This document shows positions 44,026 through 58,173 of a DNA stretch of 64,000 bases, piece by piece; positions within the stretch are counted from its first letter, which is position 1, and the number at the start of each line of letters is the position of its first letter. Source of the DNA: Yoonia sp. SS1-5 (GTDB taxonomy: Bacteria > Pseudomonadota > Alphaproteobacteria > Rhodobacterales > Rhodobacteraceae); the NCBI RefSeq assembly GCF_038443705.2, contig NZ_CP151767.2:3711501-3775500 (forward strand). Reading direction: 5' to 3'. Both the position numbers and the translations under genes were made by a program. The notes beneath the pieces are model-generated. The model made no database searches, was not told where the DNA came from, and saw nothing but the letters and a program-made list of their open reading frames with translations.

Positions 44026-44128
44026 GTGGTGTCCTTTCCCCGTTGGCCCATCATACCGGATTGAACGGGTATTTATTGCCTGCTATTTTAATTCCGACGA
44101 GGCAAATGAACTGCAATTTGAGGTTTTC

Positions 44129-44620
44129 GTGGGCGATTTGTTTTCCGAACTGGACAGTTTTGATCGTAAGATCGTTGATATTCTCGCGGTAGAGGGCCGG
44201 ATCAGCGTAACGGCGCTGGCACGGCGTATATCGCTATCCAAGTCGCCGACCCAGGCCCGTTTGAAACGGCTGGAAGAGTCCGGTGTCATTCGCGGATATC
44301 GCGCCTTGTTCGACCCGATACGCCTGGGGCGCGATCATGTGGCATTTGTAGAGGTCAAACTATCTGACACCCGTGAGACGGCTTTATCTGCCTTTGCCGC
44401 GGCAGTGATGCAAATTCCCGAGGTAGAACAATGTCATCTGATTGCCGGCGCGTTCGACTATCTGCTGAAGGTTCGCACATCCGGCATGACAGGTTATCGT
44501 GCTGTTCTGGCTGAGAAAATATCGACCTTGCCGCATGTGTCGAACACATCGACCTATGTGGCGATGCAGGCGATCAAGGAGAATGGGGCAAACCCGCCCA
44601 CGCTTGGCGTTCCATCGTGA
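44129..44620 (+). CDS. putR: Lrp/AsnC-family regulator of putA
   Basis: A 163-residue regulator. The N-terminal HTH reads ELDSFDRKIVDILAVEGRIS and SLSKSPTQARLKRLEESGVI; the C-terminal RAM domain ends with PHVSNTSTYVAMQAIKE. The GTG start at 44129 (with TTGAGG upstream) was preferred because the region before it is non-conserved. Divergent from putA with 103 bp between them, the typical PutR arrangement; proline-responsive activation is therefore expected. Confidence 0.88.
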   Translation: MGDLFSELDSFDRKIVDILAVEGRISVTALARRISLSKSPTQARLKRLEESGVIRGYRALFDPIRLGRDHVAFVEVKLSDTRETALSAFAAAVMQIPEVEQCHLIAGAFDYLLKVRTSGMTGYRAVLAEKISTLPHVSNTSTYVAMQAIKENGANPPTLGVPS

Positions 44621-44656
44621 CTTGACTGAAACCGAATTGGGCGCAGATCATGCAAT

Positions 44657-45196
44657 ATGAAGTGGATCATCTTGCCTGCCGTTCTGGCCCCGCCCGCCTT
44701 TGCCGATATATGCCCGCCGGTCGCTGATCATTCCGCGCGACTGGGTGAAATCATCGTTGATCTGGGCCAGGCCCGTGGTCAGGGCGAGGCGCAGGTCCTG
44801 AGCCAGCAGCTTTGGTCTTTGTGGACGGATGCGCCGGATGCCAAGGCGCAAGCGCTTTTGGATGAGGGCATGCGCAAGCGGTCCAGTTTCGATTTTCTGG
44901 GCGCGCGCGACACGCTTGACGCGCTTGTCGAATATTGCCCGGATTATGCGGAAGGCTATAACCAAAGGGCATTTGCAAGCTACCTGCGACAGGATTTCGA
45001 GGCCGCCTTGATTGATCTGGACAAGGCGTTGTCAATCATGCCCAATCACATTGCTGCATTGTCCGGCAAGGGCCTGACCTTGATGGGTCTGGGCCGTCAC
45101 GACGAGGCGCAGGATGCGTTGCGCGCTGCGGTTGAAATGAACCCTTGGCTGCAAGAGCGGGCGCTGTTAGTGGAACCACCCGATATCGAGCTCTGA
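44657..45196 (+). CDS. Secreted tetratricopeptide-repeat protein
   Basis: A 179-residue protein with a signal peptide (MKWIILPAVLAPPAFA, then DICPPVAD). At least two TPR-like helical pairs follow (GYNQRAFASYLRQDFEAALIDLDKALSIMPNHIAALSGKG, then LTLMGLGRHDEAQDALRAAVEMNPW). It is probably periplasmic, acting as a protein-binding scaffold. It lies 36 bp after putR on the same strand. It precedes the type III secretion locus by 283 bp but has the base composition of the core genome, so I do not count it as part of that locus. Confidence 0.8.
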   Translation: MKWIILPAVLAPPAFADICPPVADHSARLGEIIVDLGQARGQGEAQVLSQQLWSLWTDAPDAKAQALLDEGMRKRSSFDFLGARDTLDALVEYCPDYAEGYNQRAFASYLRQDFEAALIDLDKALSIMPNHIAALSGKGLTLMGLGRHDEAQDALRAAVEMNPWLQERALLVEPPDIEL

Positions 45197-45479
45197 TCCC
45201 GCTTGCTCGGCATGCATGGAATGGCCCATGCTGGATGCGGGCGTGTTGATCTACGCGGCTTACCATTGAATTTTGACCAAGCGTTGCTTCGATATTTGAC
45301 CGAACGACGGGCTTTTAATTTCGCTCGCAACTGAAACGCGAAATACTCAGTAGCTACTAGCATTGCTACGTAGTCCTCCGCAGACGACCGGAGTGATCCC
45401 TTATTCGAAAATTTCGCACCCCCTGTCACATTCGACAGTGATCAAGCTTGATCTTTGTCGGAATAGGGAGGCGGCTTAA

Positions 45480-46208
45480 ATGGTTCATCGTCGAATTCGC
45501 ACTTCGTTGCTGCTCGCATTGCCTTTGCTGCTGATGGGCTGCAAGGAGGCGATCTATACCAATTTGAGCGCGCGCGCTGTGAATGAAATGGTTGCGACGC
45601 TTATTTCCGCGAATGTCTCGGCCAGCCGGAAAGAGGTCGAGGCTGGTGTCTATTCCTTGATGATCGACAAGCAGGATTTGGCAATCGCAACAATCATTCT
45701 GGACCAGCATGGGCTGCCATCACGCGAGTTCCGCGCAATGGATGATGTCTTCACTGCCGAGGGGTTGGTTGGAACGCCCTTTGAAGAGCAAGTCAGATAT
45801 GCCTTCGCTTTGGAACAACAGCTTACTCAGGATATTGTTTCTATCGCAGGCGTGCGGGACGCTGGTGTGACGATCAGCTTGCCAAGAGACGAGCAGCGGG
45901 GGCGAAACGAGGCTCGGCCCGGCTCGGCGTCTGTGATTGTCCATCATGAGGTGAACTTCAATGTTCAGGCCGCAATTCCGAAAATCAAAACACTGATTTC
46001 GGGTGCGATTGCCGATCTCGACTATGAGCAAGTGGCGGTCGTGTCATTTCCTGTCGTCCGATCTGAAGTTACGGTGACCGCCCCGGAAGTGAGCGAAGCC
46101 AACGTCTTTGGCATGAACTCAGCGTTATTTATTGCAGCTGGGCTTCTGATGGCGATTTGCTTTTGTATTTACCAACTTGCCTGCGCAGCACTGAGAAGCC
46201 GGAGATAA
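45480..46208 (+). CDS. sctJ: Type III secretion inner-membrane ring lipoprotein SctJ
   Basis: A 242-residue protein of the YscJ/EscJ/HrcJ family, which builds the inner ring of the injectisome. A lipoprotein signal ends in the lipobox LLMG-C21. The periplasmic domains are recognisable (EMVATLISANVSASRKEVE; DGIVSIAGV-like DIVSIAGVRDAGVTISLP). A C-terminal transmembrane helix (NSALFIAAGLLMAICFCIYQ) anchors the ring. Flagellar FliF lacks the lipobox and is much longer, so this is a non-flagellar system. It heads the operon; the next gene starts 5 bp later. Confidence 0.92.
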   Translation: MVHRRIRTSLLLALPLLLMGCKEAIYTNLSARAVNEMVATLISANVSASRKEVEAGVYSLMIDKQDLAIATIILDQHGLPSREFRAMDDVFTAEGLVGTPFEEQVRYAFALEQQLTQDIVSIAGVRDAGVTISLPRDEQRGRNEARPGSASVIVHHEVNFNVQAAIPKIKTLISGAIADLDYEQVAVVSFPVVRSEVTVTAPEVSEANVFGMNSALFIAAGLLMAICFCIYQLACAALRSRR

Positions 46209-46213
46209 CTGAG

Positions 46214-46819
46214 ATGACCGAAACAGCGACTTTCGAACTGACCCCAGAAATCATGGGAGGATATGCCCGCAGTATCATTTTGCGTGAAATTGAATCCCAC
46301 GAACTGCGCAACAGCATTATGTCCAATCCGGATCTGTGGGATGAAATTCGTCAAGAGGCCTACAGCGCTACCGGATATACTGGCCAGCTGACAAAACAAG
46401 ATCGCGGACATATCGACGAGGTGAATTGGTTCATCTCGCAAGATTTGGTCATGTTGCCAATCATTCTTGGGATCGCGAGATTTGCTGAGCAGATGGTCAT
46501 GGAGCTCAACAATCCGCTGAGCCGAGCGCTGCTTCAACAGCTTCCGGGGCCGCTGGTTCGCCTCGCGCTGAGTTTCAGAAAGAAGCATGATCTTGGGTTC
46601 TCGGCGCATAAGACGCCGCTGCCACCGTTGGAGGAAATTTCTTCGGACGGCATGCAAACGATCGCGTGTTGGATGCAGACATTGCCCAGCAACAGTCGCG
46701 CGCAGATTCTGTTGCAGATACCCGACCTCAAACTGCCGCGAATTGGCCTGACGGATTGTGGTGCGCGCGTTATTTTGATGACGCAGTTCATCTCTCGCGC
46801 ACGTGTCTTCGAAGTCTGA
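46214..46819 (+). CDS. Type III secretion accessory protein, SctK position
   Basis: A 201-residue soluble protein between sctJ and sctL, the place of sctK in Ysc-type operons. I see no strong motif; features are a WFISQDLVMLPIILGIARFA segment and an amphipathic helix (RALLQQLPGPLVRLALSFR). In known systems SctK is a divergent cytosolic sorting-platform protein that links SctD to SctQ/SctL. The assignment rests on position only. Its TGA overlaps the sctL ATG (ATGA), indicating translational coupling. Confidence 0.65.
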   Translation: MTETATFELTPEIMGGYARSIILREIESHELRNSIMSNPDLWDEIRQEAYSATGYTGQLTKQDRGHIDEVNWFISQDLVMLPIILGIARFAEQMVMELNNPLSRALLQQLPGPLVRLALSFRKKHDLGFSAHKTPLPPLEEISSDGMQTIACWMQTLPSNSRAQILLQIPDLKLPRIGLTDCGARVILMTQFISRARVFEV

Positions 46820-47499
46820 TGATCCCTGCTGAACAGCCTCAATTTTCTGCAAAGTTGCTGAGTGCGGCGGAGTTTGACGCGTATAATGCGACCCGCCTCG
46901 GTCGCGCGGCCGCCGACGAGGCGCGAGAGGAGATGTTGAGAGAAGCAAAGCAAGAGGCCAGAAGCATCATCGATAGGGCGAAGGACAATGCCGCCGAATT
47001 GTTGGCGCGGCGTACCGAGGCGCTTGACGAGGATGTTTCGGCTTGGGTTGAAAAACAAAAGTCCCAAAGGCTAGGCACAGAGCTTGCCGCGCTTGACAAG
47101 GAAATCGCTGCCATTGGCCAAACGTTCGAAAAGGCCCTGCCGGCCATTTCTGATCTCATCATTCAAACGACCAAAAAAGTCATCGGCGCAATGCCTGACG
47201 CAAAAAAATATCGGATGATTGTGCAGAAGGCGTTGGATGATCTTCCGACAGGTTGCGCTGTTACGCTGGAGGTCGCACCCGACCGTGCGGGTCAGATCAA
47301 CGATGCGATAAAGGCCGCAAAGGCGGAAAAATTTGCCAACCTATCGGTCAATGTCAACCCGAATGCCGATGCAGGGGCCATGCGCCTGTTGGTGCAAGAA
47401 GGCTCGATTGACTTTGGTCTGGCAGATCAGTTCAGCCGGATTGAGGCGGTGCTTCAAGAAACGCTCGGGCGGGTCGATAGCGAAGGGTCGCCGGAATGA
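46819..47499 (+). CDS. sctL: Type III secretion ATPase regulator SctL
   Basis: A 226-residue protein of the SctL/FliH family, the stator that binds the ATPase. An Ala/Glu/Arg-rich coiled coil (EEMLREAKQEARSIIDRAKD, then VEKQKSQRLGTELAALDKEIA) spans residues 30-100, followed by the compact C-terminal domain (SDLIIQTTKKVIGAM; GAMRLLVQEGSIDFG). It begins in the stop codon of the previous gene, and its own TGA overlaps the sctN ATG. Confidence 0.88.
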   Translation: MIPAEQPQFSAKLLSAAEFDAYNATRLGRAAADEAREEMLREAKQEARSIIDRAKDNAAELLARRTEALDEDVSAWVEKQKSQRLGTELAALDKEIAAIGQTFEKALPAISDLIIQTTKKVIGAMPDAKKYRMIVQKALDDLPTGCAVTLEVAPDRAGQINDAIKAAKAEKFANLSVNVNPNADAGAMRLLVQEGSIDFGLADQFSRIEAVLQETLGRVDSEGSPE

Positions 47500-48827
47500 C
47501 CCTGTTGCTGGACCGGCTTGAGGCAACGCGCGCGGCGCTTTACGGGATGACGCCACGCCCGCCACAGGGCCGTGTCACCCGGCTTTCGGGTCCGGTGATC
47601 AGGGCTGTATTCTCGCACGCCATCATCGGTGAAATCTGTGAAATCCATCGTACGGCTGGACAGCCCGCCATCATTGGTCGTGTTGTCGGTCTTGACGATA
47701 ATGAAGTGATCATCAGCCCCTTTGGCGCGTGTACAGGTTTGGCAGTTGGTGCGCCGGTGCGCAGTTATGGCCGCGAACTTACCGTCGCCGTGGGTCACCA
47801 ACTTTTAGGCCGCACCCTTGATGGGATGGGCAACCCGATTGACGGGTTGGACCCGCTTCCCCCGGGCATGATGCGTCGTCCTGTCACCTGTGATGCCCCG
47901 CCACCGATGACGAGGCCATTGATCGAACGCCCGATGATCACGGGCATGAAAGCCATCGATTTTGCGACCACCTTGGGCCGAGGGCAAAGGGTGGGGATTT
48001 TCGGGTCCGCCGGAACCGGGAAATCGTCAACCCTTTCAGCGATCGCCCAGCATTGTGAAGCAGATATCATCGTGATCGCCATGATTGGCGAACGCGGCCG
48101 CGAGGTGCGGGAATTTCTTGAGCGCAGCTTGCCAGCCGAAAAGCGGCGCAACACCGTGGTTGTTGCGGCGACGTCGGATCGATCACCGATGGAGCGGCTG
48201 AACGGCGCCCATGTGGCAACCGCAATTGCCGAAAGCTTTCGCGACGAAGGCAAATCCGTGCTGTTGATGATGGATAGCCTGACCCGTGTTGCACGTGCCT
48301 TGCGTGAAATCGGCCTTGCCGCCGGCGAGGCCCCGACGCGTCGCGGCTACCCCGCGTCGGTTTACCCGGCACTCCCTGAATTGATCGAACGCGCAGGCCG
48401 CAATGTGCATGGGGATATTACCGGTCTGTTTACCGTCCTTGTCGAAGGCGATGACGCCAATGACCCGATTGGTGAGGAGGTCCGCAGCCTGACAGATGGC
48501 CATATCATTCTGGACCCCAAAATCGCTGCCGAGGGCCGCTATCCGGCAATTAATGTTGCCCGCAGCCTTAGTCGGATCATGGGTGATGTCACTGACGACA
48601 CGCATCGGGAAATGATGATCGAGGTCCGCCGGTTGATCGCCATTTATGAGCGGATCGAAATCCTGGTGCAGATCGGGGAATACGAACCCGGTCAGGACAA
48701 GGACAATGATCGCGCGGTCGCGCTGGTCCCGAAAATAAACGAAGCCTTCAAACAGAAGATTGAGGAGAAGTTCGCGCTGGAAGACACTTTTGCTCTTTTC
48801 AAGAAAATTCTGTCCGATGCAAAGTAA
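47496..48827 (+). CDS. sctN: Type III secretion ATPase SctN
   Basis: A 443-residue hexameric ATPase of the FliI/YscN family that unfolds and feeds substrates. Walker A is at 170-177 (GSAGTGKS), the catalytic segment IGERGREVREF near residue 200, and Walker B in LLMMDSLTRVARALRE. The type III signature GYPASVYPALPELIERAG and the C-terminal EKFALEDTFALFKKIL are present. Length equals the family's. It overlaps sctL (4 bp) and sctO (11 bp). Confidence 0.96.
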   Translation: MTLLLDRLEATRAALYGMTPRPPQGRVTRLSGPVIRAVFSHAIIGEICEIHRTAGQPAIIGRVVGLDDNEVIISPFGACTGLAVGAPVRSYGRELTVAVGHQLLGRTLDGMGNPIDGLDPLPPGMMRRPVTCDAPPPMTRPLIERPMITGMKAIDFATTLGRGQRVGIFGSAGTGKSSTLSAIAQHCEADIIVIAMIGERGREVREFLERSLPAEKRRNTVVVAATSDRSPMERLNGAHVATAIAESFRDEGKSVLLMMDSLTRVARALREIGLAAGEAPTRRGYPASVYPALPELIERAGRNVHGDITGLFTVLVEGDDANDPIGEEVRSLTDGHIILDPKIAAEGRYPAINVARSLSRIMGDVTDDTHREMMIEVRRLIAIYERIEILVQIGEYEPGQDKDNDRAVALVPKINEAFKQKIEEKFALEDTFALFKKILSDAK

Positions 48828-49308
48828 GTCGCTCGATCTTATCCTGGAAGTCCGCAATTTTCGTGAAAAGTTGGGGCAGGCGCGACTGGCAAGTGCGCGA
48901 CGAGACGTGAAGCGCAAATCCGTTGCCGTGCAAGAAGCTGAGCAAGATCTGCAATCATCCGTCGCAAACCATTATAAATCGGTGGAAAAGTCCCTGCGGG
49001 CTGCTGAAGAGACCAAGGATCCTCAGGCACGCTTTGCCGTTGTTGCACTCGCGCTTAGCCGGGGCCGGCGCGCCATTCGCCGTGCGGAAGATGACGTAAA
49101 TGGTGCCCATGATGATGTTGAAGTTGCGCAATCAACAAAGAAGCAGGCTGGCCGGACACTGCGCCAGGAAGCCATTGAACGCATCAAATTAGAGCGGCTG
49201 AAAGACAAGCTTGAAATTAAGGAACGCCGCGAGGCCGACATGCTTGAGGAAGATGAATTTGATGAGGTTGCAACAGTCATGTGCCAGCCAAGGGGGCGCA
49301 GCGCGTAA
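48817..49308 (+). CDS. sctO: Type III secretion stalk protein SctO
   Basis: A 163-residue coiled-coil protein at the expected place after the ATPase (FliJ/YscO). It is almost entirely charged helix (LQSSVANHYKSVEKSLRAAE; ERIKLERLKDKLEIKERREAD) with no enzymatic motif. It would act as the central stalk in SctN. The sequence is poorly conserved in all families, so the name rests on size, coiled-coil character and position. Its stop overlaps the sctQ start (TAATG). Confidence 0.82.
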   Translation: MQSKSLDLILEVRNFREKLGQARLASARRDVKRKSVAVQEAEQDLQSSVANHYKSVEKSLRAAEETKDPQARFAVVALALSRGRRAIRRAEDDVNGAHDDVEVAQSTKKQAGRTLRQEAIERIKLERLKDKLEIKERREADMLEEDEFDEVATVMCQPRGRSA

Positions 49309-50369
49309 TGCCAAGAGATCACGCAGATAATGGCCAGGCAAGCAGTCGGCCGCTGACCGAAAGAGATCGCAAGATTCTCATTGAAAAGTTTAATGCCAGC
49401 GCGATCAATCTTGCGGATCTTAGACTTCAGTTCGTTGACGATGCGTATGATGGCGTCGTTGCTGATTGGGACAAACTGACCGTCGTTGTCGGCGAAGAAA
49501 CCTGTCATGTGTATGTGCCAACATTGGCGCTTCGAATGATTTTTTTGAACGCCGGGTATAATGAAAAGACACGGGCATGGACCGACCGCCTGCGCAAGAT
49601 CATGTACCGGCACCTGCTGTCCGAAGAACTTGGTAAGTTACACGACCAACAGGGCGTTACCGTGTTGATCACGCAATGTGAGGCGGTTCAGAGCGATCCC
49701 GGCATTTTGCCTGCCTCATTGCTGTTCAGCATCAATCTTTCAGACGCAAATGTGCAGCCGTTGCCGCTCCTTATCGATACGCTGCCGTCCGTCATGCGCG
49801 ACTGGATGGGTGGTGAAGATGAAGCTGCGGGCGGGTCGGCAGATGGCGTATCGACTGACGCCGAGGGGATCATCGTGCCAGTATCGGTGCGCAGTCCCGA
49901 TTTCCAGATCCCGCTTCATGTGATCAAAGACGCGGCCAAGGGCGACGTCATCTTGCTGGATCGGTCATGGAACCGGACCACCGATCGCATAATTCGCATC
50001 GCAAACACACAGTTGTGGAGGGCGACGCGTCGCCGCAGTGGCAAAATTATCCTGGGAGACAAAATGGACATTGAACAAATAGACGCAGATGGTGCTATCG
50101 CGCAGGAAACACCTGATCGTTTGGACGGCGATGATGTCTTTGATGCACGCGAAATTCTCGTGAATGTCAGCATCGAGCATTGCAGAGCGCAGATCAGTCT
50201 TCAGGAAGTTACGGGCATGAGAGGTGGAGAAATTCTACCGATAAATCCGCCGGAAAACGATGTGGTTCGCGTTCTCGTAAATGGCAAATTTCTGAGATAT
50301 GGAAAACTGGTCGACTACGAGGGGCAGGTCGGTGTTCAGCTTTTAGCTGAGCACGACCGTACGAGCTAG
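49308..50369 (+). CDS. sctQ: Type III secretion C-ring protein SctQ
   Basis: A 353-residue protein of the FliM/FliN-SctQ family. The C-terminal SpoA domain is clear (VSIEHCRAQISLQEVTGMRG, then INPPENDVVRVLVNGKFLRYG). A second, more divergent SpoA-like region precedes it (QIPLHVIKDAAKGDVILLDR). The first ~180 residues are variable. It forms the cytosolic sorting platform with SctK and SctL. An internal start producing a short SctQ-C is possible but not evident. Confidence 0.85.
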   Translation: MPRDHADNGQASSRPLTERDRKILIEKFNASAINLADLRLQFVDDAYDGVVADWDKLTVVVGEETCHVYVPTLALRMIFLNAGYNEKTRAWTDRLRKIMYRHLLSEELGKLHDQQGVTVLITQCEAVQSDPGILPASLLFSINLSDANVQPLPLLIDTLPSVMRDWMGGEDEAAGGSADGVSTDAEGIIVPVSVRSPDFQIPLHVIKDAAKGDVILLDRSWNRTTDRIIRIANTQLWRATRRRSGKIILGDKMDIEQIDADGAIAQETPDRLDGDDVFDAREILVNVSIEHCRAQISLQEVTGMRGGEILPINPPENDVVRVLVNGKFLRYGKLVDYEGQVGVQLLAEHDRTS

Positions 50370-50377
50370 CCGCGCGT

Positions 50378-51016
50378 ATGGATTACACTTCACCTCTCGT
50401 CATTGGCTTTCTGGCTTCCTTCTTCTTGCTGGCCGTGTTGTCCATGACAGCTTTCGTCAAGCTGTCGGTTGTGTTCATGATAATTCGCAACGCTATGGGC
50501 TTGCAGCACGTCCCGTCAAATGCGGTTTTGATGGTGCTTGCATTCTTTTTGGCGCTGTTCATATCACTGCCAACGATCAATGCGGCGGTCGGTGCGATTC
50601 AGGACACTGACATTAAGCTAGAAAGCCCTGCAGATTTTGTAGCCTTATGGAATATCGGCATTGCACCCTTCCAGATATTTTTAGAGCGCAATATTGACGA
50701 GGCTCAAAGCCTTTTCTTCACCGATATTGCGAATGAGCTGTGGGAGGGATCCGGACTCGTCGCAACGCCAGAAAGTTTCATCATACAAGTCCCAAGCTTT
50801 CTGGTGACGGAGCTGACCGAGGCGTTTGAAATCGGATTTTTGCTCTACCTGCCATTTGTTGCAATTGACCTTGCGGTCACAGGCATCCTCATGGCGTTGG
50901 GAATGCAGATGGTGCAGCCAAACATAATCGCGGTTCCCTTCAAGTTGCTGATCTTCGTCATGGTTGATGGATGGGCAAAATTGGTGAGCGGACTGGTCGT
51001 AACATATCTGGGGTAG
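50378..51016 (+). CDS. sctR: Type III secretion export apparatus protein SctR
   Basis: A 212-residue protein of the FliP/SctR family of the export gate. Typical blocks: STAFVKLSVVF-like MTAFVKLSVVFMIIRNAMGL, VPSNAVLMVLAFFLALFI, and the late helix IGFLLYLPFVAIDLAV. The periplasmic loop near residues 65-110 is intact. It starts 9 bp after sctQ and is followed by sctS after 4 bp. Confidence 0.94.
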   Translation: MDYTSPLVIGFLASFFLLAVLSMTAFVKLSVVFMIIRNAMGLQHVPSNAVLMVLAFFLALFISLPTINAAVGAIQDTDIKLESPADFVALWNIGIAPFQIFLERNIDEAQSLFFTDIANELWEGSGLVATPESFIIQVPSFLVTELTEAFEIGFLLYLPFVAIDLAVTGILMALGMQMVQPNIIAVPFKLLIFVMVDGWAKLVSGLVVTYLG

Positions 51017-51020
51017 TGAT

Positions 51021-51290
51021 ATGGCAGAGGGTACTTTTGCACATTATTTGATTGCGTTTATGATGAACGTTGTCCTATTAGCCGGGCTGCCATTGGCGGT
51101 GGCGACGGTCAGCGGACTAATTGTTTCAATTATCCAGGCAGTCACCCAGATTCAGGATCAGACGCTTTCGCAAACAATGAAGATCGTCGCCATCACAGCG
51201 ATGTTGCTTAGCTTTGGTGGGTCCCTGGTTGCGCCGCTATTGAGCTCGACACGCGAGTTGTTCAGTTCATTCGGAAATCTGGGCTTCTAG
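51021..51290 (+). CDS. sctS: Type III secretion export apparatus protein SctS
   Basis: An 89-residue two-helix protein of the FliQ/SctS family (LAGLPLAVATVSGLIVSIIQAVTQIQDQTLS, then MKIVAITAMLLSFGGSLVAP). The T-Q-I-Q-D-Q-T-L block is the family hallmark. Part of the RST export gate. It is followed by sctT after 3 bp. Confidence 0.94.
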   Translation: MAEGTFAHYLIAFMMNVVLLAGLPLAVATVSGLIVSIIQAVTQIQDQTLSQTMKIVAITAMLLSFGGSLVAPLLSSTRELFSSFGNLGF

Positions 51291-51293
51291 CCT

Positions 51294-52106
51294 ATGAGCC
51301 GGGACATTGTTTTACAGTTTGTGAATGTGCCATTCGAGACTGGAATGGCAGTGTTTATTATATGTTCGTTACGGATGTTTGGGATCTTTTACTCATTCTA
51401 TCCCTTTAGTTGGGGGTTCTTTTCCGACCGTATCATGCGTCTGAGTGTTGTTGTCGCCTTGACCGCACCACTTATGTTGCTGGAATATACGACTGTGGCC
51501 GAGGGCGTCGCCACAATGTCATCTTTGACAATCGCGCTGCTTGCGGCGAAGGAATTCGCAATTGGGTACGGGCTGGGGTTGCTGGCATCCAGCCCGTTTC
51601 GTGCTTTGCAATATGCCGGGGCCGTGTCAGACACGTTCCGTGGTGAGAATGACAGCGGCCTGACATCGCCGGACGGGAGCGGCATTCAAACGACGTCACT
51701 TTTCTATCTGATAATTGGCTTTGCTGTCTTTTTTGGCAACGGTGGGCTGATCTACATCGTTGATATGATCTATGCGACCTATGCGATATGGCCGCTGATG
51801 GAGACGTTGCCGTTTTTGGTCGACGGCACCGCAGATATCGCATTAAGAGCGCTCGGAAAGGCGTTACGTCTGGCCGTCAAGATCATCGCGCCGGTGATCC
51901 TTCTTTTGTTTATCGTCGAGCTTGTTCTGGCAATCGCCGAAAAGCTTGCTCGGCGCTTTGGCATCTTCCAACTTTCGTTTGTTGTGAAGAACCTCGTTAC
52001 AAAACTCACGCTGCCATTAACTGCAATGCTCATACTCAGGGTCGCAGATGCCGAGCTTATTGCAGCTTTTGATGCAGTTGACGTTATGCGTTCGTACTTT
52101 CCATGA
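51294..52106 (+). CDS. sctT: Type III secretion export apparatus protein SctT
   Basis: A 270-residue integral-membrane protein of the FliR/SctT family with about seven helices. Recognisable: MAVFIICSLRMFGIFYSFYP at the N-terminus, AAKEFAIGYGLGLLASSPFRALQYAG (conserved KE...G.G) and the late LLLFIVELVLAIAEKLARRF. It completes the R-S-T gate. The stop overlaps the sctU start (ATGA). Confidence 0.93.
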   Translation: MSRDIVLQFVNVPFETGMAVFIICSLRMFGIFYSFYPFSWGFFSDRIMRLSVVVALTAPLMLLEYTTVAEGVATMSSLTIALLAAKEFAIGYGLGLLASSPFRALQYAGAVSDTFRGENDSGLTSPDGSGIQTTSLFYLIIGFAVFFGNGGLIYIVDMIYATYAIWPLMETLPFLVDGTADIALRALGKALRLAVKIIAPVILLLFIVELVLAIAEKLARRFGIFQLSFVVKNLVTKLTLPLTAMLILRVADAELIAAFDAVDVMRSYFP

Positions 52107-53143
52107 GCGACTCACAACCGAAAAAACATAATGCGTCCGAAAAGAAGCTGCGTAAACAGCGTGAGGAAGGCAATGTTCCACAATTCTCGGATGTGACGAG
52201 CCTTTGGAATTTCGCAGTCGCCTTGGTTGTCATTCCAATTATCGCGATGATAATCATAGAGCATTTGATGTCGCTATTCTCTGTTGTTGAACGGGCAGAG
52301 GTTCTTGATTTTATGGTTGTTTATAGACCTGCCATTCTTGCCGCACTTAATGCCGTTTTCCTGAGCGTTGGGGTGCTCATTTTGGCGAAAATTGTAATTA
52401 GCGTCTTCACATCAATGATCCTTTTGAAGGGTATCAATTTTGCGCTAAAGCCCTTGGTACCCAAACCAAACCGCTTGTCCCCGGCGGCTGGCCTCAAGCG
52501 CATGTTCGGGAAACGCACCTGGGTTGAGGTCGGTCAGGGGTTATTGCGGCTGACAGCGTGGTTCGCGGTTGTTCTTTTAACACTCTATCTTTATTTGGAC
52601 GATCTTTTTCACCTTGATCGATGCAATGAGAACTGCGCGATCATTCTGGCGTTACGAATCTTTGGGATCCTGTCGACGACCGCAATCGTCATACTATTGG
52701 TGTCGGTTCTTATCGAGGTCCCGCTTCAGCGTGGCCTTTATCTCAAAGAGCAAAAAATGACCGATGAGGAAGTGAAAAAGGAGCGCAAGGAGCAATTCGG
52801 CTCTGATGAGGTCCGCCGCGAACGCAACCGCATACGGGATGAAATGGCGCGGACCGCCGGTAGCGCCGGTGTTGATAAAGCGAACATGATCTTCTTCTTC
52901 GAAGATCGTGCAGTTGCCATTCGCTATCATCCGGATCATGCGCCAATCCCCATCGTCGCAGCAAAGGCTGGCACCCCAGAAGCCGTCGAAAAGCTGCGCG
53001 CGGCCGTCAAGGAAAACGGCTTTAGTGAACTCCAGGACCAAGAGATCGTTGAGACCTCGTTTGGTACCGAACCGGGATATCAAGTGGACGAAATTGCCTT
53101 CAAACCGTTGGTACGTGGGATGCAAGCCATCTTTGGCGGTTAA
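52103..53143 (+). CDS. sctU: Type III secretion switch protein SctU lacking the NPTH motif
   Basis: A 346-residue FlhB/YscU-family protein. The N-terminal block (KKLRKQREEGNVPQFSDV), four membrane helices (residues 33-215) and the cytosolic domain (EVKKERKEQFGSDEVRRERN, residues 223-241) are standard. The autocleavage site N-P-T-H should fall at residues 265-268 but reads F-F-E-D (MIFFFEDRAVAIRY against VVVTNPTHYAVALKY). Autoproteolysis is therefore not expected. The rest of the C-terminal domain is readable but its end is divergent. Codons 265-268 are at 52895-52906. Confidence 0.92.
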   Translation: MSDSQPKKHNASEKKLRKQREEGNVPQFSDVTSLWNFAVALVVIPIIAMIIIEHLMSLFSVVERAEVLDFMVVYRPAILAALNAVFLSVGVLILAKIVISVFTSMILLKGINFALKPLVPKPNRLSPAAGLKRMFGKRTWVEVGQGLLRLTAWFAVVLLTLYLYLDDLFHLDRCNENCAIILALRIFGILSTTAIVILLVSVLIEVPLQRGLYLKEQKMTDEEVKKERKEQFGSDEVRRERNRIRDEMARTAGSAGVDKANMIFFFEDRAVAIRYHPDHAPIPIVAAKAGTPEAVEKLRAAVKENGFSELQDQEIVETSFGTEPGYQVDEIAFKPLVRGMQAIFGG

Positions 53144-53178
53144 GAGCGCAATAAAGTAGGCCGCCAATACGTAGAAAA

Positions 53179-53209
53179 CTAGGTGGTTGAGTCAGCTATC
53201 ACCCTAGGT
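53179..53209. promoter_or_regulatory. Imperfect palindrome with CTAGGTGGT word
   Basis: CTAGGTGGT (53179-53187) faces CACCCTAGGT (53200-53209) across a 12-nt centre. The same 9-bp word occurs at 56440-56448 and 56680-56688 (as ACCACCTAG). All three lie in intergenic DNA in front of the accessory genes linked to the secretion operon. A shared regulator site is an inference. Confidence 0.4.
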
Positions 53210-53833
53210 CCTCGCTCCGCTATCATGAAGTGTAAATTGCACGCCAATCGGAGGCACAGCAACTATGAAACCCGTACCGACAACCGCACCGCCAATGATG
53301 GCCCAACCGGAGCAACCCGAAGGGCCCGTTTTCTCCTTTGATACTGCCCAGGGCCCCGGGGCGAAGGCGGACAAAAATATTTCGAAAACTAAACCGAACG
53401 CGGATTCAAAGTCGGCGAAAGCCGCTGAGAAAGTCTTGGATACCTTTGTCGAAGCTGTGGAAAATGACGATTCCCGTGAAGATGTTGAAAGCATGATAGA
53501 TGGGAAAACAGAGGACGAACGTTCAAAGAAAGAGCAACGCGATGTAACCGCAACTGTTGTCGAGGCTGGCGATACCATCGAAAAGGATGTCACCGTTGTT
53601 GTCGTGAAAGATGACAAGGAAACAGTGGTCAAGACGGATTCTGGAGCAGAGGTTGATGTCAGTCTTGATAAGAATGAGGAATCAAAAGTTACAACAACTG
53701 ACGATGGCGAAGTTATTCTTGTTCTCAGCGACGATTTGACGCCGAAGGAAAGTAAAGAAAAAGCCGTTGAGGTTGTTGAGCAACTTTTGCACGATTCTGC
53801 ACAAGAACATAACGTTTCTGTCTCAGCGCATTT

Positions 53834-53840
53834 CTTGAAG
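53834..53840. repeat. Target-site duplication, left copy (CTTGAAG)
   Basis: The 7-bp word CTTGAAG directly precedes the IS left end; an identical copy at 55021-55027 directly follows the right end. Perfect duplication indicates a recent insertion. Confidence 0.92.
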
Positions 53841-55020
53841 TGTAAAACTTCAGACTTGATCTGACGGACATCTCAGCTTGCGACGCTGAGAACGGGTTGC
53901 GCACTGTCCGATTGGTCGTGCGTTTTGATCGTCTTCTCGACAGCGATGTGTAGCGTTTCGCGGAAGGTCTGCATAGGTGTTTTGCCATAGCAGTGACGTC
54001 CCGAATGTGGCCGCTGTTCGTTGTACTTTGCCAGCCACGCATCCAGATCGGCCTGCAACTCTTCGACTGACCGATACAGTTTCTTGCGGAATGCGATGTC
54101 GTAGAACTCATCCTTGATGGTGCGATGGAACCGCTCGCAGATGCCGTTTGTTTGCGGAGAATTGGCCTTGGTTCGGGTGTGGTCCACGTCCTCGACGGCC
54201 AGATAAAGCTGGTAGGCGTGGTTCTCGACCTTGCCACAGTATTCCGTGCCCCGGTCTGTCAGGACGCGCAGCAGGCTGATCTCATGCTCTGCAAAGAACG
54301 GGATCACGCGGTCGTTCAGCAAGTCGGCCGCGGTGATTGCCGTCTTTTCAGTGTAGAGCTTGCAGATCGCCACGCGGGCATAGGTATCGACAAAGGTCTG
54401 TTGATAAATGCGTCCGACGCCCTTCATTGTGCCCACATAATAGGTGTCCTGGCTGCCCAGATAGCCAGGGTGGTGGCTCTCGATCTCGCCATGGGCTTCT
54501 TTCTTGGCCTTGGCTTTTTCCAGCGCGGCCAACTGATCCTCGGTGAGCAAGATACCCTCTTGGGCGGCACGGGCCTCCAGGGCCTTGAGGCGCTTTTTCA
54601 TGGTTTCCAGATCATTACGCAGCCAGATCGACCGGACGCCCGACGATGACACCATGATGCCTTTCTGCTGCAGCTCCCACGACGCCCGTTTCTGACCCAG
54701 AGCCGGGTTGTCGATGGCCAGTTCGATGACCGCCTTCTCGACATGTTCTGGCACGCGGTTTTTCATCACCGGCTTGCGGCGGCTGAGATCCATCAGGGCT
54801 TCTTCGCCACCCTGATCGTAAAGTTCTCTGAACCGGTAAAAGCTGTCCCGCGAATAACCCATCACTTTGCAGGCCTGCGACACGCTTCCGAGCTGTTTGG
54901 CCAGTTCCAACAGCCCCAGCTTCGGCTTGATGATCTTCTCTTGAATACTTGTCATTGATCGACACTCCTTGATTGCGCTCCAGAAGAGCAGAAATGTCAG
55001 ATCAAGTCGTGTGTTTTACA
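53841..55020 (-). mobile_element. IS481-family insertion sequence (1180 bp)
   Basis: A complete insertion sequence. The ends are imperfect inverted repeats of 25 bp (53841-53865 and 54996-55020) that agree at 21 positions, beginning TGTAAAAC and sharing GACTTGATCTGAC. One transposase gene lies between them. The element is flanked by the 7-bp repeat CTTGAAG and sits inside the acidic gene after sctU. Confidence 0.93.
53873..54955 (-). CDS. IS481-family DDE transposase
   Basis: A 360-residue transposase. An N-terminal helix-turn-helix (LGLLELAKQLGSVSQACKVMGYSRDSFYR) is followed by an rve integrase core. The catalytic triad is readable: first Asp in TFVDTYAR, second Asp in LTDRGTEYCG, and Glu in GICERFHRTIKDEF. 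The full length, an AAGGAG ribosome-binding site and intact catalytic residues suggest an active element. It reads against the interrupted host gene. Confidence 0.95.
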   Translation of the reverse strand: MTSIQEKIIKPKLGLLELAKQLGSVSQACKVMGYSRDSFYRFRELYDQGGEEALMDLSRRKPVMKNRVPEHVEKAVIELAIDNPALGQKRASWELQQKGIMVSSSGVRSIWLRNDLETMKKRLKALEARAAQEGILLTEDQLAALEKAKAKKEAHGEIESHHPGYLGSQDTYYVGTMKGVGRIYQQTFVDTYARVAICKLYTEKTAITAADLLNDRVIPFFAEHEISLLRVLTDRGTEYCGKVENHAYQLYLAVEDVDHTRTKANSPQTNGICERFHRTIKDEFYDIAFRKKLYRSVEELQADLDAWLAKYNEQRPHSGRHCYGKTPMQTFRETLHIAVEKTIKTHDQSDSAQPVLSVAS

Positions 55021-55027
55021 CTTGAAG
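55021..55027. repeat. Target-site duplication, right copy (CTTGAAG)
   Basis: Second copy of the 7-bp repeat that flanks the IS481 element; the interrupted reading frame resumes directly after it at 55028. Confidence 0.92.
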
Positions 55028-55183
55028 AATTTTCGAGCTGAGTTTATGCAGTATTTTATTGATTTGGACGACACAAGAATTTTCTGGCCGACTTGGGTCG
55101 ATCTGAGCGTGCGCATCACAAACGATGATCCTGTGGCCGAAAGAGTTCTTAAAAAGCTGATGGCCAGGCGAAATGCTCAATAA

Positions 55184-55588
55184 CCTTTTTCCGACGCTTT
55201 TCGTAATATGCAAACTGCGGTGGAACATTGGCGGCTTCCGGCCATAGCGCCGCTCGTTAGATATATTGTTCCACTATGAATGCTTTAACATCGCTTGCTG
55301 GACTTTCTGAAAACTCGCACCTCCTTTTCATCGTGGTGGAAACCTGCGGCGAAGCCTATAACGCCGGCCAGTTTTGAACCTAGTGTGATGAGTAAGGGTC
55401 TGCGGCTGATGTTGTCGCTCTACGCCTGACCCGAAGCACAATGACCGCAACACGATGTTCAGATCCCGCATCACATCTCGGGATGTTCCGCTATCTGAGT
55501 CTGTTGCTCGATTGATCCGCGTCGTTACTATTCAGTTACAAAGATGAGTGCTTGTGCCGCCGGTTGGCCGTGCCGGTCTGCGCGGCGA
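55184..55588. other. Gene-poor gap after the interrupted gene
   Basis: About 400 bp with no convincing coding frame on either strand. A short frame reading KPAAKPITPASFEPSVMSKG (about 55345-55405) faintly recalls the tail of an IS3-type transposase, but this is too weak to call. Composition is mixed. It may be degraded DNA left from earlier insertions. Confidence 0.4.
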
Positions 55589-55627
55589 CAAAAAAGTACC
55601 ACGCCCCGTTTTGTTGGGACGTGGTGC
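55589..55627 (-). terminator. Intrinsic terminator for the EF-hand gene
   Basis: On the minus strand CCACGTCCC, an 8-nt loop, then GGGGCGTGG (one mismatch) is followed by TAC and six T. A stem of 9 bp plus the T-run is a standard rho-independent terminator. It lies about 120 bp past the stop of the EF-hand gene. Confidence 0.75.
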
Positions 55628-55746
55628 GGACGTTCAAAGATGCCTCGATAGCAACGCGCGCCTGGGAGAAACACGGCCGCGGTTGATGTGGCTTGAACCG
55701 ACGGGATGTCGCGTCTCTCGTCGGTTCTAAGGTCTGCCAGGCGAGC

Positions 55747-56343
55747 TTAGCCTTTGCCACCGCCGACGTCGCCGCCGCCACTTTCGCCGCCGCCTTCGCC
55801 TTCAGCGCCGTTTTCTTCTTTGGCAGCTGCCAGTTCTTCTTTGTCGATTTCACCGTCGCCATTCTTGTCGGCTTTCTGGAACTCTTCCTTACTGATCTTG
55901 CCGTCTCCATCTTTATCAAGCGCAGAGATCAGATCTTCGATAGAGATTCCGCCGAAGCTGCCAGCAACACCGCCGCCGCCAGAGCCGCCGCCGCCTTGTT
56001 CACCGCCACCTTGTTCGCCACCGCCTTTTTCGCCGCCGCCGGATTGCTCACCGCCACCCTGACCGCCGCCCTGGCCGCCGCTGCCCTGACCACCTTGCGA
56101 GGCCTCCGACTGTTCGAGAATGTTTGCGATCTCTTGCTGATCAAGCATGCCGTCGCCGTTTGAGTCAGCTGCGTCGAATTCCTTCTGGCTGATCTTGCCA
56201 TCGCTGTTCTTGTCGAGGGCTTGCGACAGCTGCTGCATGCCTTGCTCGCCGCCGAAAGCATCCTTCACCATGTTGTCCATTTGTTGTCCGCCACCATTTA
56301 GCTGGGCTAAGTTGACGCCGGCACCTTGTACACCATTGATCAT
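55747..56343 (-). CDS. Glycine-rich four-EF-hand calcium-binding protein
   Basis: A 198-residue protein with four canonical EF-hand loops: DKNSDGKISQKEF (from D44), DSNGDGMLDQQEI (from D60), DKDGDGKISKEEF (from D143) and DKNGDGEIDKEEL (from D159). The two pairs are separated by a Gly/Gln/Glu-rich linker (residues 82-126), and the C-terminus is also Gly-rich. There is no Sec or Tat signal; the N-terminus (MINGVQGAGVNLAQLNGG) is polar and flexible, as in type III substrates, which is only suggestive. A strong AGGAGG precedes the start. It is opposite in direction to the T3SS operon and 4 kb beyond its end. Confidence 0.85.
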   Translation of the reverse strand: MINGVQGAGVNLAQLNGGGQQMDNMVKDAFGGEQGMQQLSQALDKNSDGKISQKEFDAADSNGDGMLDQQEIANILEQSEASQGGQGSGGQGGGQGGGEQSGGGEKGGGEQGGGEQGGGGSGGGGVAGSFGGISIEDLISALDKDGDGKISKEEFQKADKNGDGEIDKEELAAAKEENGAEGEGGGESGGGDVGGGKG

Positions 56344-56881
56344 TCGTATCGTCCTCCTGTGAGTTGTGTTCGCTTCTGTACATTATGACGGGGACGATGC
56401 GGCTGCTGTGCGGACCACTACCTAAAACTCTTGCGTGTCACCACCTAGATGGCAGCCCGCACCCACGCAGCTGACGCTGTCATCGCCCCGTTTGCCGCAT
56501 ATGGACGCCGTATCAGTATGAATGTGGTCGCGATCTGCGCCGTATTGTTCCCGATTGTTGGGTGAGACGGGCGCATGGTCACACCGCCGCGTCGCTGCTG
56601 CCCAGATCTGTTGCGCACCGATACGTAGTGATTTGGGTGATTGCTTTGCACGACCTGCGTTGAGGCCACCGATCCTGCCACCACCTAGCAGGTGCTAGTT
56701 CGAACGCCAAGTCGGAGCCTGGATCCGGGAGTGCGTCTTGAGAGCCGTCGTCACGACGACTGGCGAAGCTCGATGCCCCCCGTATTTCAATGATGTCCTG
56801 ACCGACCCACGTTCTGCCTGGCGATGGCTGCGCAGCTGAGAAAACAGAATTGGTGGGCTCTGAGCCCCTTGGAGCGAAGAA
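56344..56881. other. Intergenic region between EF-hand and lysozyme-like genes
   Basis: 538 bp with no supported gene. It must hold the divergent promoters of the two flanking genes. Two copies of ACCACCTAG are visible (56440-56448 and 56680-56688); the second is part of CTAGCAGGTGCTAG, a near-perfect dyad. A minus-strand frame of 79 codons (56445-56684) has no ribosome-binding site or recognisable features. Confidence 0.5.
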
Positions 56882-57562
56882 ATGTGCGTGAAGAAAATCA
56901 GTAAGGCGGGGTTGGTCCTGGGTTTGTCGACCCTAGCGGGCATGACAGGCTCGGCGGCTGCCGCAGATGATCAAACGCGATATGCTGGCATGATGGCCGG
57001 TCAGCCAGCGATCACTGCGGCAGATACCGCGATATCGTCACGCACAACGCCAGTTTCGGCCGCAAATCGGCCTGATCAGGATGCGGCCATGTCCCAGCTA
57101 CTGGCACTGATAAGCCGGGCGGAAAGCCCGGTGCACGGTTACGACAGCGTTCACTTTGGCGCCCGAATAAAGCCAGGCAAACCACCGTCACAACTGACCG
57201 TTGCAGAGATACAGGCCTGGGTCCGCGCCACGCCGGGCCAGCCCCATGCCATTGGTCGCAATCAGATCATTCCCGCAACCTTCAATCGCCTTGTCAGTGC
57301 GTTGGGGTTGTCCGGAGATACCGTCTATGATCGGCCGACACAGGACCGTATGGGACGCTATCTGATCGAAGAGGCAGGCTATGCCCGTTTCATTGCGGGC
57401 CGTATGTCCCATGATGCGTTTATGGATCGGTTAGCTAAGGTTTGGGCCGGTTTGCCGATGGCCGACGGTCGCTCTGCCTATCACCGATACGCGGGCAATC
57501 GTGCGACGATTACACGGGCTGAATATGCCTCGGCGATCATGACAATTTTTCCAATGCGGTAG
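56882..57562 (+). CDS. Secreted lysozyme-like (muramidase) protein
   Basis: A 226-residue protein with a signal peptide (about residues 1-27, KAGLVLGLSTLAGMTGSAAA). Residues 66-225 show a lysozyme-like fold: the likely catalytic Glu81 in LISRAESPVHGYDSVHFGAR, then QLTVAEIQAWV, HAIGRNQIIPATFNRL, and TQDRMGRYLIEEAGYARF. This is similar to phage-type and specialised muramidases. Many type III systems carry a wall-cutting enzyme (IagB, EtgA), so the location next to the T3SS genes makes a role in assembly plausible, but it is not proven. An in-frame GTG at 56888 is an alternative start. Confidence 0.75.
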   Translation: MCVKKISKAGLVLGLSTLAGMTGSAAAADDQTRYAGMMAGQPAITAADTAISSRTTPVSAANRPDQDAAMSQLLALISRAESPVHGYDSVHFGARIKPGKPPSQLTVAEIQAWVRATPGQPHAIGRNQIIPATFNRLVSALGLSGDTVYDRPTQDRMGRYLIEEAGYARFIAGRMSHDAFMDRLAKVWAGLPMADGRSAYHRYAGNRATITRAEYASAIMTIFPMR

Positions 57563-57639
57563 GCAGTTAGTCAAAGATGCGTGCCGATTTTGCTGGCGGA
57601 AAGGAAATTGTCGTGCGGGGCTGCCAGATCAGGCTTTGT

Positions 57640-57805
57640 AGATATCCAACACGCGACGACGTCAGACGGGATTTATTCGATTGGCCGGATGAAACGTGCC
57701 CTGGCGATCCGCGCGTTGAAGGGGGCCATCGCATTCCGCGCACCGCTCAATGGCTTTTCCAATCCGCGTCGACGGCACGCTGCACTCGGGTGGAAAAGCA
57801 GTGGC
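57640..57805 (+). pseudogene. Degraded IS3-type transposase C-terminus
   Basis: In one frame RYPTRDDVRRDLFDW (57640-57684) and, after a 70-bp insertion that shifts the frame, FSNPRRRHAALGWKSSG (57755-57805). Together they resemble the C-terminus of IS3-family OrfB proteins (..TRDEARR.LF..IE.FYNPRRRHSALG..SP). No intact transposase or ends are present. It lies just before the tRNA-Leu gene and suggests past transposition at the edge of the accessory region. Confidence 0.45.
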
Positions 57806-57843
57806 CTTTGGCGTCTTTGTGTGTGATATCCTCAACAATGGAT

Positions 57844-58173
57844 GCGGACGTGGTGGAATCGGTAGACACAAGAGACTTAAGCCATGTTTTGAGTGCCTCG
57901 GAGGAAACTCCGGGAGTAGAACTGCTCAAATTCGGGGAAAGCTAACGGCCACAATGATGGCTTATGCCAATCCCGAGCCAAGCCGTTCGGGACCAGTGTC
58001 CGAACGGAAGGTGTAGAGACTAGACGGGCAGCACCTAAGGCCGGGGACCGGCGATGGTGAAGGGATAGTCCAGACCACAAACGGCGCTTTGGCGTCGGCG
58101 GTGAAAACCGTAGCGGGTAAGAAAATCTCTCGATCGTATGATCGTGCGGGTTCAAGTCCCGCCGTCCGCACCA
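57844..58173 (+). tRNA. tRNA-Leu (UAA) interrupted by a group I intron
   Basis: The exons are 57844-57878 (35 nt) and 58122-58173 (52 nt including encoded CCA). Joined, they fold as an 87-nt tRNA with acceptor GCGGACG/CGTCCGC, anticodon stem AGAGA/TCTCT with loop CTTAAAA (anticodon TAA), a long variable arm (CGATCGTATGATCG) as expected for leucine, and T arm GCGGG-TTCAAGT-CCCGC. The intron separates U34 from A35. Confidence 0.93.
57879..58121 (+). ncRNA. Group I intron in tRNA-Leu(UAA), 243 nt, no ORF
   Basis: The element starts after U34 of the anticodon and ends with G (58121), the conserved terminal omega-G. P1 is visible: exon-intron ACTT|AA (57875-57880) pairs with TTGAGT (57889-57894), with the required U-G wobble at the splice site (57878). 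The P7 strands GACTA (in AGAGACTAGACGGG, from about 58015) and TAGTC (in AGGGATAGTCCAGACC, from about 58061) pair as in group I cores. Other stems include GCCGTTCGG/CCGAACGG. No homing-endonuclease frame fits inside. Confidence 0.9.

Follow-up and report, generated by a model that had tools for sequence, protein, structure and literature searches.

A foreign, intron-bearing tRNA-Leu(UAA) gene in Yoonia sp. SS1-5 and the integrative elements that carry its relatives

In Yoonia sp. SS1-5 the native tRNA-Leu(UAA) gene has most probably been replaced by a xenologous one that contains a group I intron and that has spread among bacteria on integrative elements inserting into the anticodon loop of this tRNA. 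The gene lies in the stretch of 64,000 nucleotides analysed here, which we call the window (Table 1). In the mechanism that we propose, an incoming element would insert into the anticodon loop of the resident tRNA-Leu(UAA), breaking it, and would bring an intron-bearing tRNA-Leu(UAA) as a replacement for the broken gene. Because the elements would carry the gene as a replacement, it would spread as one unit, exons together with intron. The intron, a compact ribozyme of the tRNA type, would then be excised by two guanosine-started transesterifications and leave a normal tRNA, as judged from its structure.

When ARAGORN was run with introns allowed it placed a 243-nt intron at gactt^aaaat, between U34 and A35, and thus returned the same gene boundaries, intron length and insertion point that had been given in the initial annotation. 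Joined, the exons give an 87-nt tRNA-Leu(taa) of regular form, with the standard cloverleaf that had been predicted and with an encoded CCA. Without the intron option the program misses the gene at 57844-58173; gene finders of this kind miss such genes in general, so that genomes can seem to be without a tRNA-Leu(UAA). The Rfam group I model RF00028, suggested earlier as a check, matches window positions 57869-58093 with 54.0 bits (E-values of 2.1e-12 for a 2 kb search and 6.6e-11 for the window), and the intron at 57879-58121 is its only match in the whole genome. Since this score exceeds the Rfam cut-off of 50 bits by only 4 bits, the identification was not rested on RF00028 alone.

Table 1. 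Features of the window discussed in the text, with positions numbered from the first nucleotide of the window.
Feature	Position	Strand	Basis
tRNA-Leu(UAA) gene with group I intron	57844-58173	+	RF00028, ARAGORN, covariation
5' exon of tRNA-Leu(UAA), last nucleotide U34	57844..57878	+	ARAGORN on the joined exons and with introns allowed
Group I intron, 243 nt	57879..58121	+	RF00028, 54 bits; covariation over 50 relatives
3' exon, CCA encoded	58122..58173	+	ARAGORN on the joined exons and with introns allowed
P1, ACUUAAG/UUUGAGU, U.G at the 5' splice site	57875..57894	+	pairs drawn on the sequence; U.G in 50/50
P2 hairpin, GAAA loop	57897..57914	+	all 7 pairs change on both sides; 90.3% of cells paired
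P3-P6 core	57922..58031	+	pairs drawn on the sequence and alignment
P3	57922-57927/58026-58031	+	pairs drawn on the sequence and alignment
P4 (P5 and P6 in the same core)	57931-57936/57972-57977	+	pairs drawn on the sequence and alignment
P7, GACUA/UAGUC, guanosine-binding helix	58018-58022/58066-58070 (58018..58070)	+	100% of cells paired
P8	58032..58059	+	pairs on the 50-sequence alignment
P9 hairpin, GAAA loop	58098..58111	+	outermost pair kept in only 25/50
Block conserved beside tRNA-Leu(UAA) across the genus, marking the resident locus	40612..45196		congener comparison
Stretch of 12.6 kb between resident locus and tRNA, without match in the congener loci compared	45197..57843		

The fold of the ribozyme provides the independent evidence. 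From sequences in hand we aligned 50 intron-bearing relatives (alignment A1), over which the 54 pairs proposed for the window's intron amount to 2,643 cells. Of these cells 95.0% are paired, compared with 84.7% in shuffles, and 30 of the 54 pairs show changes on both sides. None of 500 shuffles reaches any of the five measures used, and when the partners are slid by 1 to 3 columns pairing falls to 30-46%. The folding z-score of the intron is -3.4. Three elements singled out in the initial annotation are all found: a P1 helix with a U.G wobble at the splice site, which is present in 50 of 50 relatives, a P7 whose pairing is complete throughout the alignment, and a terminal G, although the presence of this last nucleotide in all 189 genes that we reconstructed follows from the construction of the search pattern. 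In P7 one pair changes from A-U to G-C in 14 of the 50 relatives. By eye, the UUU of the P1 strand is also able to pair with the AAA of the 3' exon, forming a candidate P10. Again by eye, CCUAAG/GAUGG in P8 resembles the 11-nt tetraloop receptor and would be a possible dock for the GAAA loop of P2. More generally P5 and P8 look like tetraloop receptors and L2 and L9 are GAAA loops, and on this reading of the sequence the intron may be a candidate for subgroup IC3, the tRNA type. With the P3-P9 core, the P7 helix and the covariation all in place, the element at 57879-58121 is a group I intron.

The genome yields 36 matches to the tRNA model, 35 of them other tRNAs and one the 3' exon of this very gene. 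The remaining leucine tRNAs have the anticodons CAA, UAG, CAG and GAG. The initial annotation had considered that a rival, complete tRNA-Leu(UAA) might exist elsewhere, and inspection of these 36 matches found no second one; the intron-bearing gene is the sole tRNA gene found in this genome for the codon UUA.

The position of the intron is the one occupied in cyanobacterial and plastid tRNA-Leu(UAA), and the initial annotation had contrasted it with proteobacterial tRNA introns, mostly in tRNA-Arg and tRNA-Ile. The site is correctly assigned, in a genome of the Rhodobacteraceae type. The implied rarity does not hold: 27 of 394 genomes of the family (its own included) match over most or all of the gene, thinly scattered, the gene occurs in several phyla and proteobacterial cases, Beggiatoa and Thiomargarita, are in print. 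Within the genus the distribution is sparse. Among 56 congeneric genomes (its own included), 53 show a match that crosses the anticodon without a break, two have the intron gene (the window's genome, G000, and G041, with genes 94% identical) and one, an assembly that is 83% complete, shows no match. ARAGORN reads 35 of the 53 unbroken genes as intronless Leu(taa), and the other 18 are counted from the match. A strict-filter search of the genus with RF00028 returned only the window's own genome (1 of 56) and missed G041, whose intron gene is shown by the exon search; our presence counts consequently rest on exon or gene searches.

Comparison of exons sheds light on where the gene came from. The window's exons are only 76-84% identical to the 35 intronless congener genes, whereas they are 100% identical to those of G041 and of G341, a genome of another Rhodobacteraceae genus, 99% to those of Hoeflea, 98% to HGW-Alphaproteobacteria-1 and 97% to the gammaproteobacterium Carnimonas. 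The tree of intron genes tells the same story. A clade of ten members containing the window's gene (SH-aLRT 94 in one tree and 97 in the tree used for the AU test) unites Rhodobacterales with Hoeflea, two Parvularculales MAGs, an unplaced alphaproteobacterium and Carnimonas. For the AU test we used a tree of 96 rows, from which viral, cyanobacterial, acidobacterial, Bacteroidota and unplaced rows had been excluded; gathering the Rhodobacterales intron genes (37 of the 96 rows) into one clade was rejected, with a p-AU of 3.6e-49 and a log-likelihood lower by 275, in a tree where 42 of 92 inner branches are open and many are weak, and where some of the rows counted outside Rhodobacterales are MAGs with no named order, from uncultured assemblies that can be contaminated. 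From a larger tree, of 213 rows, rows identical to or contained in family rows had been dropped beforehand. The question of vertical descent or transfer, raised at the outset, is thus answered by exon identities and the AU test in favor of transfer, with the whole tRNA gene as the unit. Vertical inheritance from an ancient source, followed by many losses, would account for an intron scattered over several alphaproteobacterial orders, and the cyanobacterial rows do stay almost together (2 label changes), but with the single Rhodobacterales clade rejected and the intron present in 2 of 56 congeners, with foreign exons, we consider it most improbable here. These objections concern this genus and Rhodobacterales, for which the comparisons argue against vertical descent; deep vertical descent may hold elsewhere.

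Group I introns can move by homing or reverse splicing, and the insertion site is the same in every gene that we compared, as would be expected if the intron alone invaded resident tRNA-Leu(UAA) genes. However, the exons travel too: they are 97-100% identical between genera, between orders and over one class border, in contrast to 76-84% toward the 35 intronless congeners. Moreover, at 243 nt the intron has no room for a homing endonuclease gene, and none lies inside it; the open frames listed across the intron encode 100-122 amino acids and extend over exons and flanks. Homing with long co-conversion of such short exons could mimic part of this pattern, and yet mobility of the intron by itself appears unlikely. 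The comparisons instead point to exons and intron having moved together, as a whole gene, from other bacteria.

A vehicle for such movement is visible in relatives. Three elements, of 58, 35 and 31 kb, interrupt a resident tRNA-Leu(UAA) in its anticodon loop and are bounded on either side by CTTAAAA. A tyrosine integrase is encoded close to one end of each element, and a replacement tRNA with an intron stands some 160-180 bp inward from the opposite end. In all three cases (Enterovirga, AGun1 and SW_2) joining the flanks restores a complete tRNA-Leu(taa). The first, in Enterovirga aerilata, spans 58,434 bp and presents in order the broken 5' half, the intron tRNA, the integrase and the displaced 3' half. 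Its protein domains include TrbI, CagX, TrbL, a TraG P-loop, T2SSE, coupling-protein and ParA-type domains, kdp cargo and the tyrosine integrase. With its att repeats, integrase and conjugation genes it is an integrative conjugative element. The second, in Bradyrhizobiaceae AGun1 (34,661 bp), has an integrase 63% identical to that of Enterovirga; the third, in SW_2 (31.3 kb), has a more distant tyrosine integrase, 31% identical, and a shared core longer than CTTAAAA. In these two the att halves and the integrase were seen, conjugation genes having been looked for in Enterovirga only. Single-query searches of the three genomes returned, as other leucine tRNAs, only those with anticodons CAA or UAG.

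In 135 intron-bearing rows the 450 nt upstream of the gene were scanned for a broken 5' half scoring at least 25 of 32, and three of the rows that had one were followed to the other end. A broken half precedes 11 of the 135 rows (in 10 genomes, L105 being the same as L192), compared with 1 of 221 random stretches, so that most copies do not show the vehicle. In G448 and in G449 (G448:C1:4082397-4082673 and G449:C3:205263-205535) a complete tRNA-Leu(CAA) is preceded, at a distance of about 160 bp, by a tRNA 5' half, which suggests that this tRNA may serve other elements in the same way.

The resident locus of the window's genus has a comparable history. In the congeners tRNA-Leu(UAA) lies downstream of a conserved block containing a long dehydrogenase-like protein, which we take to be PutA-like, an Lrp-like regulator and a TPR protein, and the opposite side differs between strains. 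In the window this block is separated from the tRNA by the strain-specific stretch listed in Table 1, which carries a type III secretion cluster (SctJ, SctN, SctR, SctT and SctU-like) and an rve-type transposase. The cluster, at 45480-53143, is of the non-flagellar kind, with YscJ, an EscN-type ATPase and FliN-, FliP-, FliR- and FlhB-family proteins.

At 36 congener loci we classified the tRNA as foreign-type intronless (12), resident or resident-like (23) or intron gene (1, G041). A broken 5' half was found within 450 nt upstream at 6 of the 12, 0 of the 23 and 1 of 1, respectively, at a threshold of 27 of 40 that one of the six just reaches, the maximum in 80 random stretches being 23 of 40. 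In G041 the resident 5' half is retained 227 nt upstream of the intron gene; the displaced 3' half was searched for in that genome and not found. The insertion in G010 has both ends. About 100 bp beyond the resident 5' half comes a complete foreign tRNA-Leu(UAA) that lacks an intron, and the resident 3' half marks the other end. The two ends have GACTTAAAATC in common, and the joined flanks give a complete tRNA-Leu(taa). One open frame of this element was first read as an integrase, which it does not resemble, and no integrase was seen in the 2.7-kb remnant. In G032 the broken half stems from a foreign-type tRNA, which implies that a replacement tRNA was itself broken later. The same genome (L071, 7768-8060, reverse strand) has a decayed tRNA-Leu copy, another that is broken at the anticodon loop and a third that is complete, all in a row, an arrangement best read as successive insertions stacked at one site. 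These loci identify tRNA-Leu(UAA) as a probable integration site of the genus, with the window's gene in the same hypervariable region.

In the window's own genome neither half of the resident tRNA was found, the only match being a weak one inside tRNA-Leu(CAA), and a search at E 1e-15 found no relative of the Enterovirga integrase; next to the window's own tRNA, att halves and an integrase were looked for and not found. The vehicle can be recognized in the three elements of relatives and, from the leftover 5' half, in G041, and from these we infer that the window's own copy probably arrived on such an element as well.

Beyond the family, scans of GTDB genomes located the gene in Alpha-, Beta- and Gammaproteobacteria, Acidobacteriota and Bacteroidota, among the matches listed. 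The pattern scans gave at least 118 genomic and 89 viral stretches, of which 18 (9 and 9) did not yield a tRNA-Leu(taa) on reconstruction and were set aside. The reconstructed genes include at least 22 from cyanobacteria, with the exon border at the same place. Similar DNA is found on plasmids too, with matches in 1,275 of 72,556 records, 1,249 of them covering at least 80% of the gene, mostly in Enterobacterales and Acinetobacter. In three resistance plasmids (L001 6001-6299, which is pCTX-M3, L414 4001-4299 and L415 4001-4299) the tRNA-Leu(UAA) gene with its intron has aac(3)-II and the gene of a small AAA ATPase as neighbors. The plasmid copy, in three records, has the same left element end as Enterovirga, and its nearest relative is the Enterovirga gene (97%). 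This match of its upstream end to the left end of an alphaproteobacterial element hints at the origin of the resistance segment. Relatives of the integrase occur in 120 plasmid records, and in the two that were inspected no tRNA-Leu half was found. The intron also matches 625 of 5,426 complete E. coli genomes; in 8 of 8 among the matches listed no annotated feature lies under the match. RNA genes are not recorded in the plasmid table, whose blanks are uninformative in this respect.

Viral contigs are a further potential source. In IMG/VR, searched with one pattern, 80 of the 89 stretches rebuild to tRNA-Leu(taa) with the intron, and of 9 contigs tested against PHROGs 8 gave one match or more, several of them to proteins of the virion, the tail or lysis; judged by eye, the genes of at least one contig, L319, look bacterial. 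Phages might on this evidence have brought the gene to these bacteria. In the same one-pattern sample, however, the viral rows lie far from the window's clade, at least 0.89 changes per column separate any of them from the nearest non-viral row, and the rows nearest to the window are bacterial, which makes a phage origin very unlikely. A 2014 review states that up to then introns of phages had been observed in protein-coding genes only (PMC3984707); an intron-bearing tRNA-Leu(UAA) in viral contigs goes beyond that statement. ARAGORN also finds tRNA-Leu(taa) introns of 205 and 700 nt in two uncultured huge phages of 735 and 595 kb (L167 1501-1791 and L166 868-1654), and in Gordonia phage Daredevil (L168 1379-1690), at about 0.6 kb from the integrase gene, a tRNA-Lys(ttt) whose 238-nt intron has a core of the same type.

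Transport on integrative elements leaves the question of whether the intron itself contributes anything. An element that inserts there would have to supply a replacement tRNA, and an intact one would be a target of the same integrase. Located inside the att core (CTT^AAAA), the intron would split CTTAAAA in the DNA, while splicing would restore the tRNA in the RNA, and we propose that the replacement could for this reason not serve as an attachment site. The intron might then be an immunity device of the element, hiding the att site of the replacement tRNA from its own or a rival integrase. We regard this idea as tentative and rather doubtful. The att core is re-formed at the exon-intron border in only 1 of 87 genes from other bacteria and 0 of 22 from cyanobacteria, among the matches listed, and in 1 of 80 viral genes. 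This destruction of the core was rejected as evidence for a shield, since any insertion at this position destroys it. The loss is also found in cyanobacteria and in phages, and so does not indicate that elements were under selection for it. The same observation favors a passenger without effect on integration, which would be found in element-borne replacement tRNAs because intron and integrases both favor the conserved anticodon loop. Replacement tRNAs in the genus are, in addition, mostly intronless (12, versus 1 with the intron, at 36 loci). On the other side, intronless replacements have themselves been broken by later elements, as in G032, a cost that an intron could prevent. On balance we incline slightly to the passenger.

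Several components of this picture are familiar. Agrobacterium-type tRNA-Arg(CCU) and Azoarcus tRNA-Ile introns are small ribozymes of the tRNA type, in another tRNA and at another insertion position than the window's. Introns in tRNA-Arg(CCU) with a similar core made up 10 of the 14 core-only family loci that were fetched (ARAGORN). Introns with the same core occur in other tRNAs of the family as well (L151, L159, L157, L163), with two in tRNA-Thr(GGU) and, by eye, one each in tRNA-Arg(UCG) and tRNA-Thr(UGU). Vepritskiy reportedly described in 2002 a tRNA-Leu(UAA) intron in a subsurface Pseudomonas. The cyanobacterial intron shares tRNA, insertion site and a homologous core with the window's; its rows are almost alone in the tree, whereas here a whole tRNA gene crosses orders and has relatives on integrative elements. 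The class of intron, its site and its presence in Proteobacteria are already known from the relevant passages of two papers (PMC4033280, PMC4853749). The second of these describes, like the present case, an interrupted tRNA-Leu-TAA in Proteobacteria, namely in the gammaproteobacteria Beggiatoa BOGUAY and Thiomargarita; unlike here, the passages concerned say nothing of a vehicle, of an att site or of a resident gene being replaced (PMC4853749).

On the side of the elements, the sections on ICEMh1 and ICEPmu1, integrative conjugative elements of Pasteurellaceae, describe a direct repeat that is the anticodon loop of a tRNA-Leu, with one whole and one broken tRNA left after insertion (PMC6861422). 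The attachment site is thus of the kind seen here, but the target is the tRNA-Leu for UUG, and in that text the word "intron" is absent (PMC6861422). Tycheposons resemble the present elements in having a tRNA at the island border and a tyrosine recombinase; in the passages concerned no intron is mentioned (PMC10872708), and the elements described here insert in the anticodon loop and, in the one examined for them (Enterovirga), carry trb-type conjugation genes. In literature that excludes most subscription papers, we found no paper joining group I introns with element-borne replacement tRNAs or with anticodon-loop att sites, nor one describing a plasmid copy of the intron-bearing tRNA-Leu(UAA). 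What appears new is the joining of a group I intron in tRNA-Leu(UAA) with anticodon-loop attachment sites, each part being known separately.

The three elements bear on two questions, namely what keeps group I introns in bacterial tRNA genes and how, in the absence of endonucleases, these introns move. Each element combines the two broken halves and an integrase with a replacement tRNA that has an intron, and together they supply a concrete vehicle and a testable reason. If the shield idea were true, a ribozyme would here be used to conceal an attachment site.
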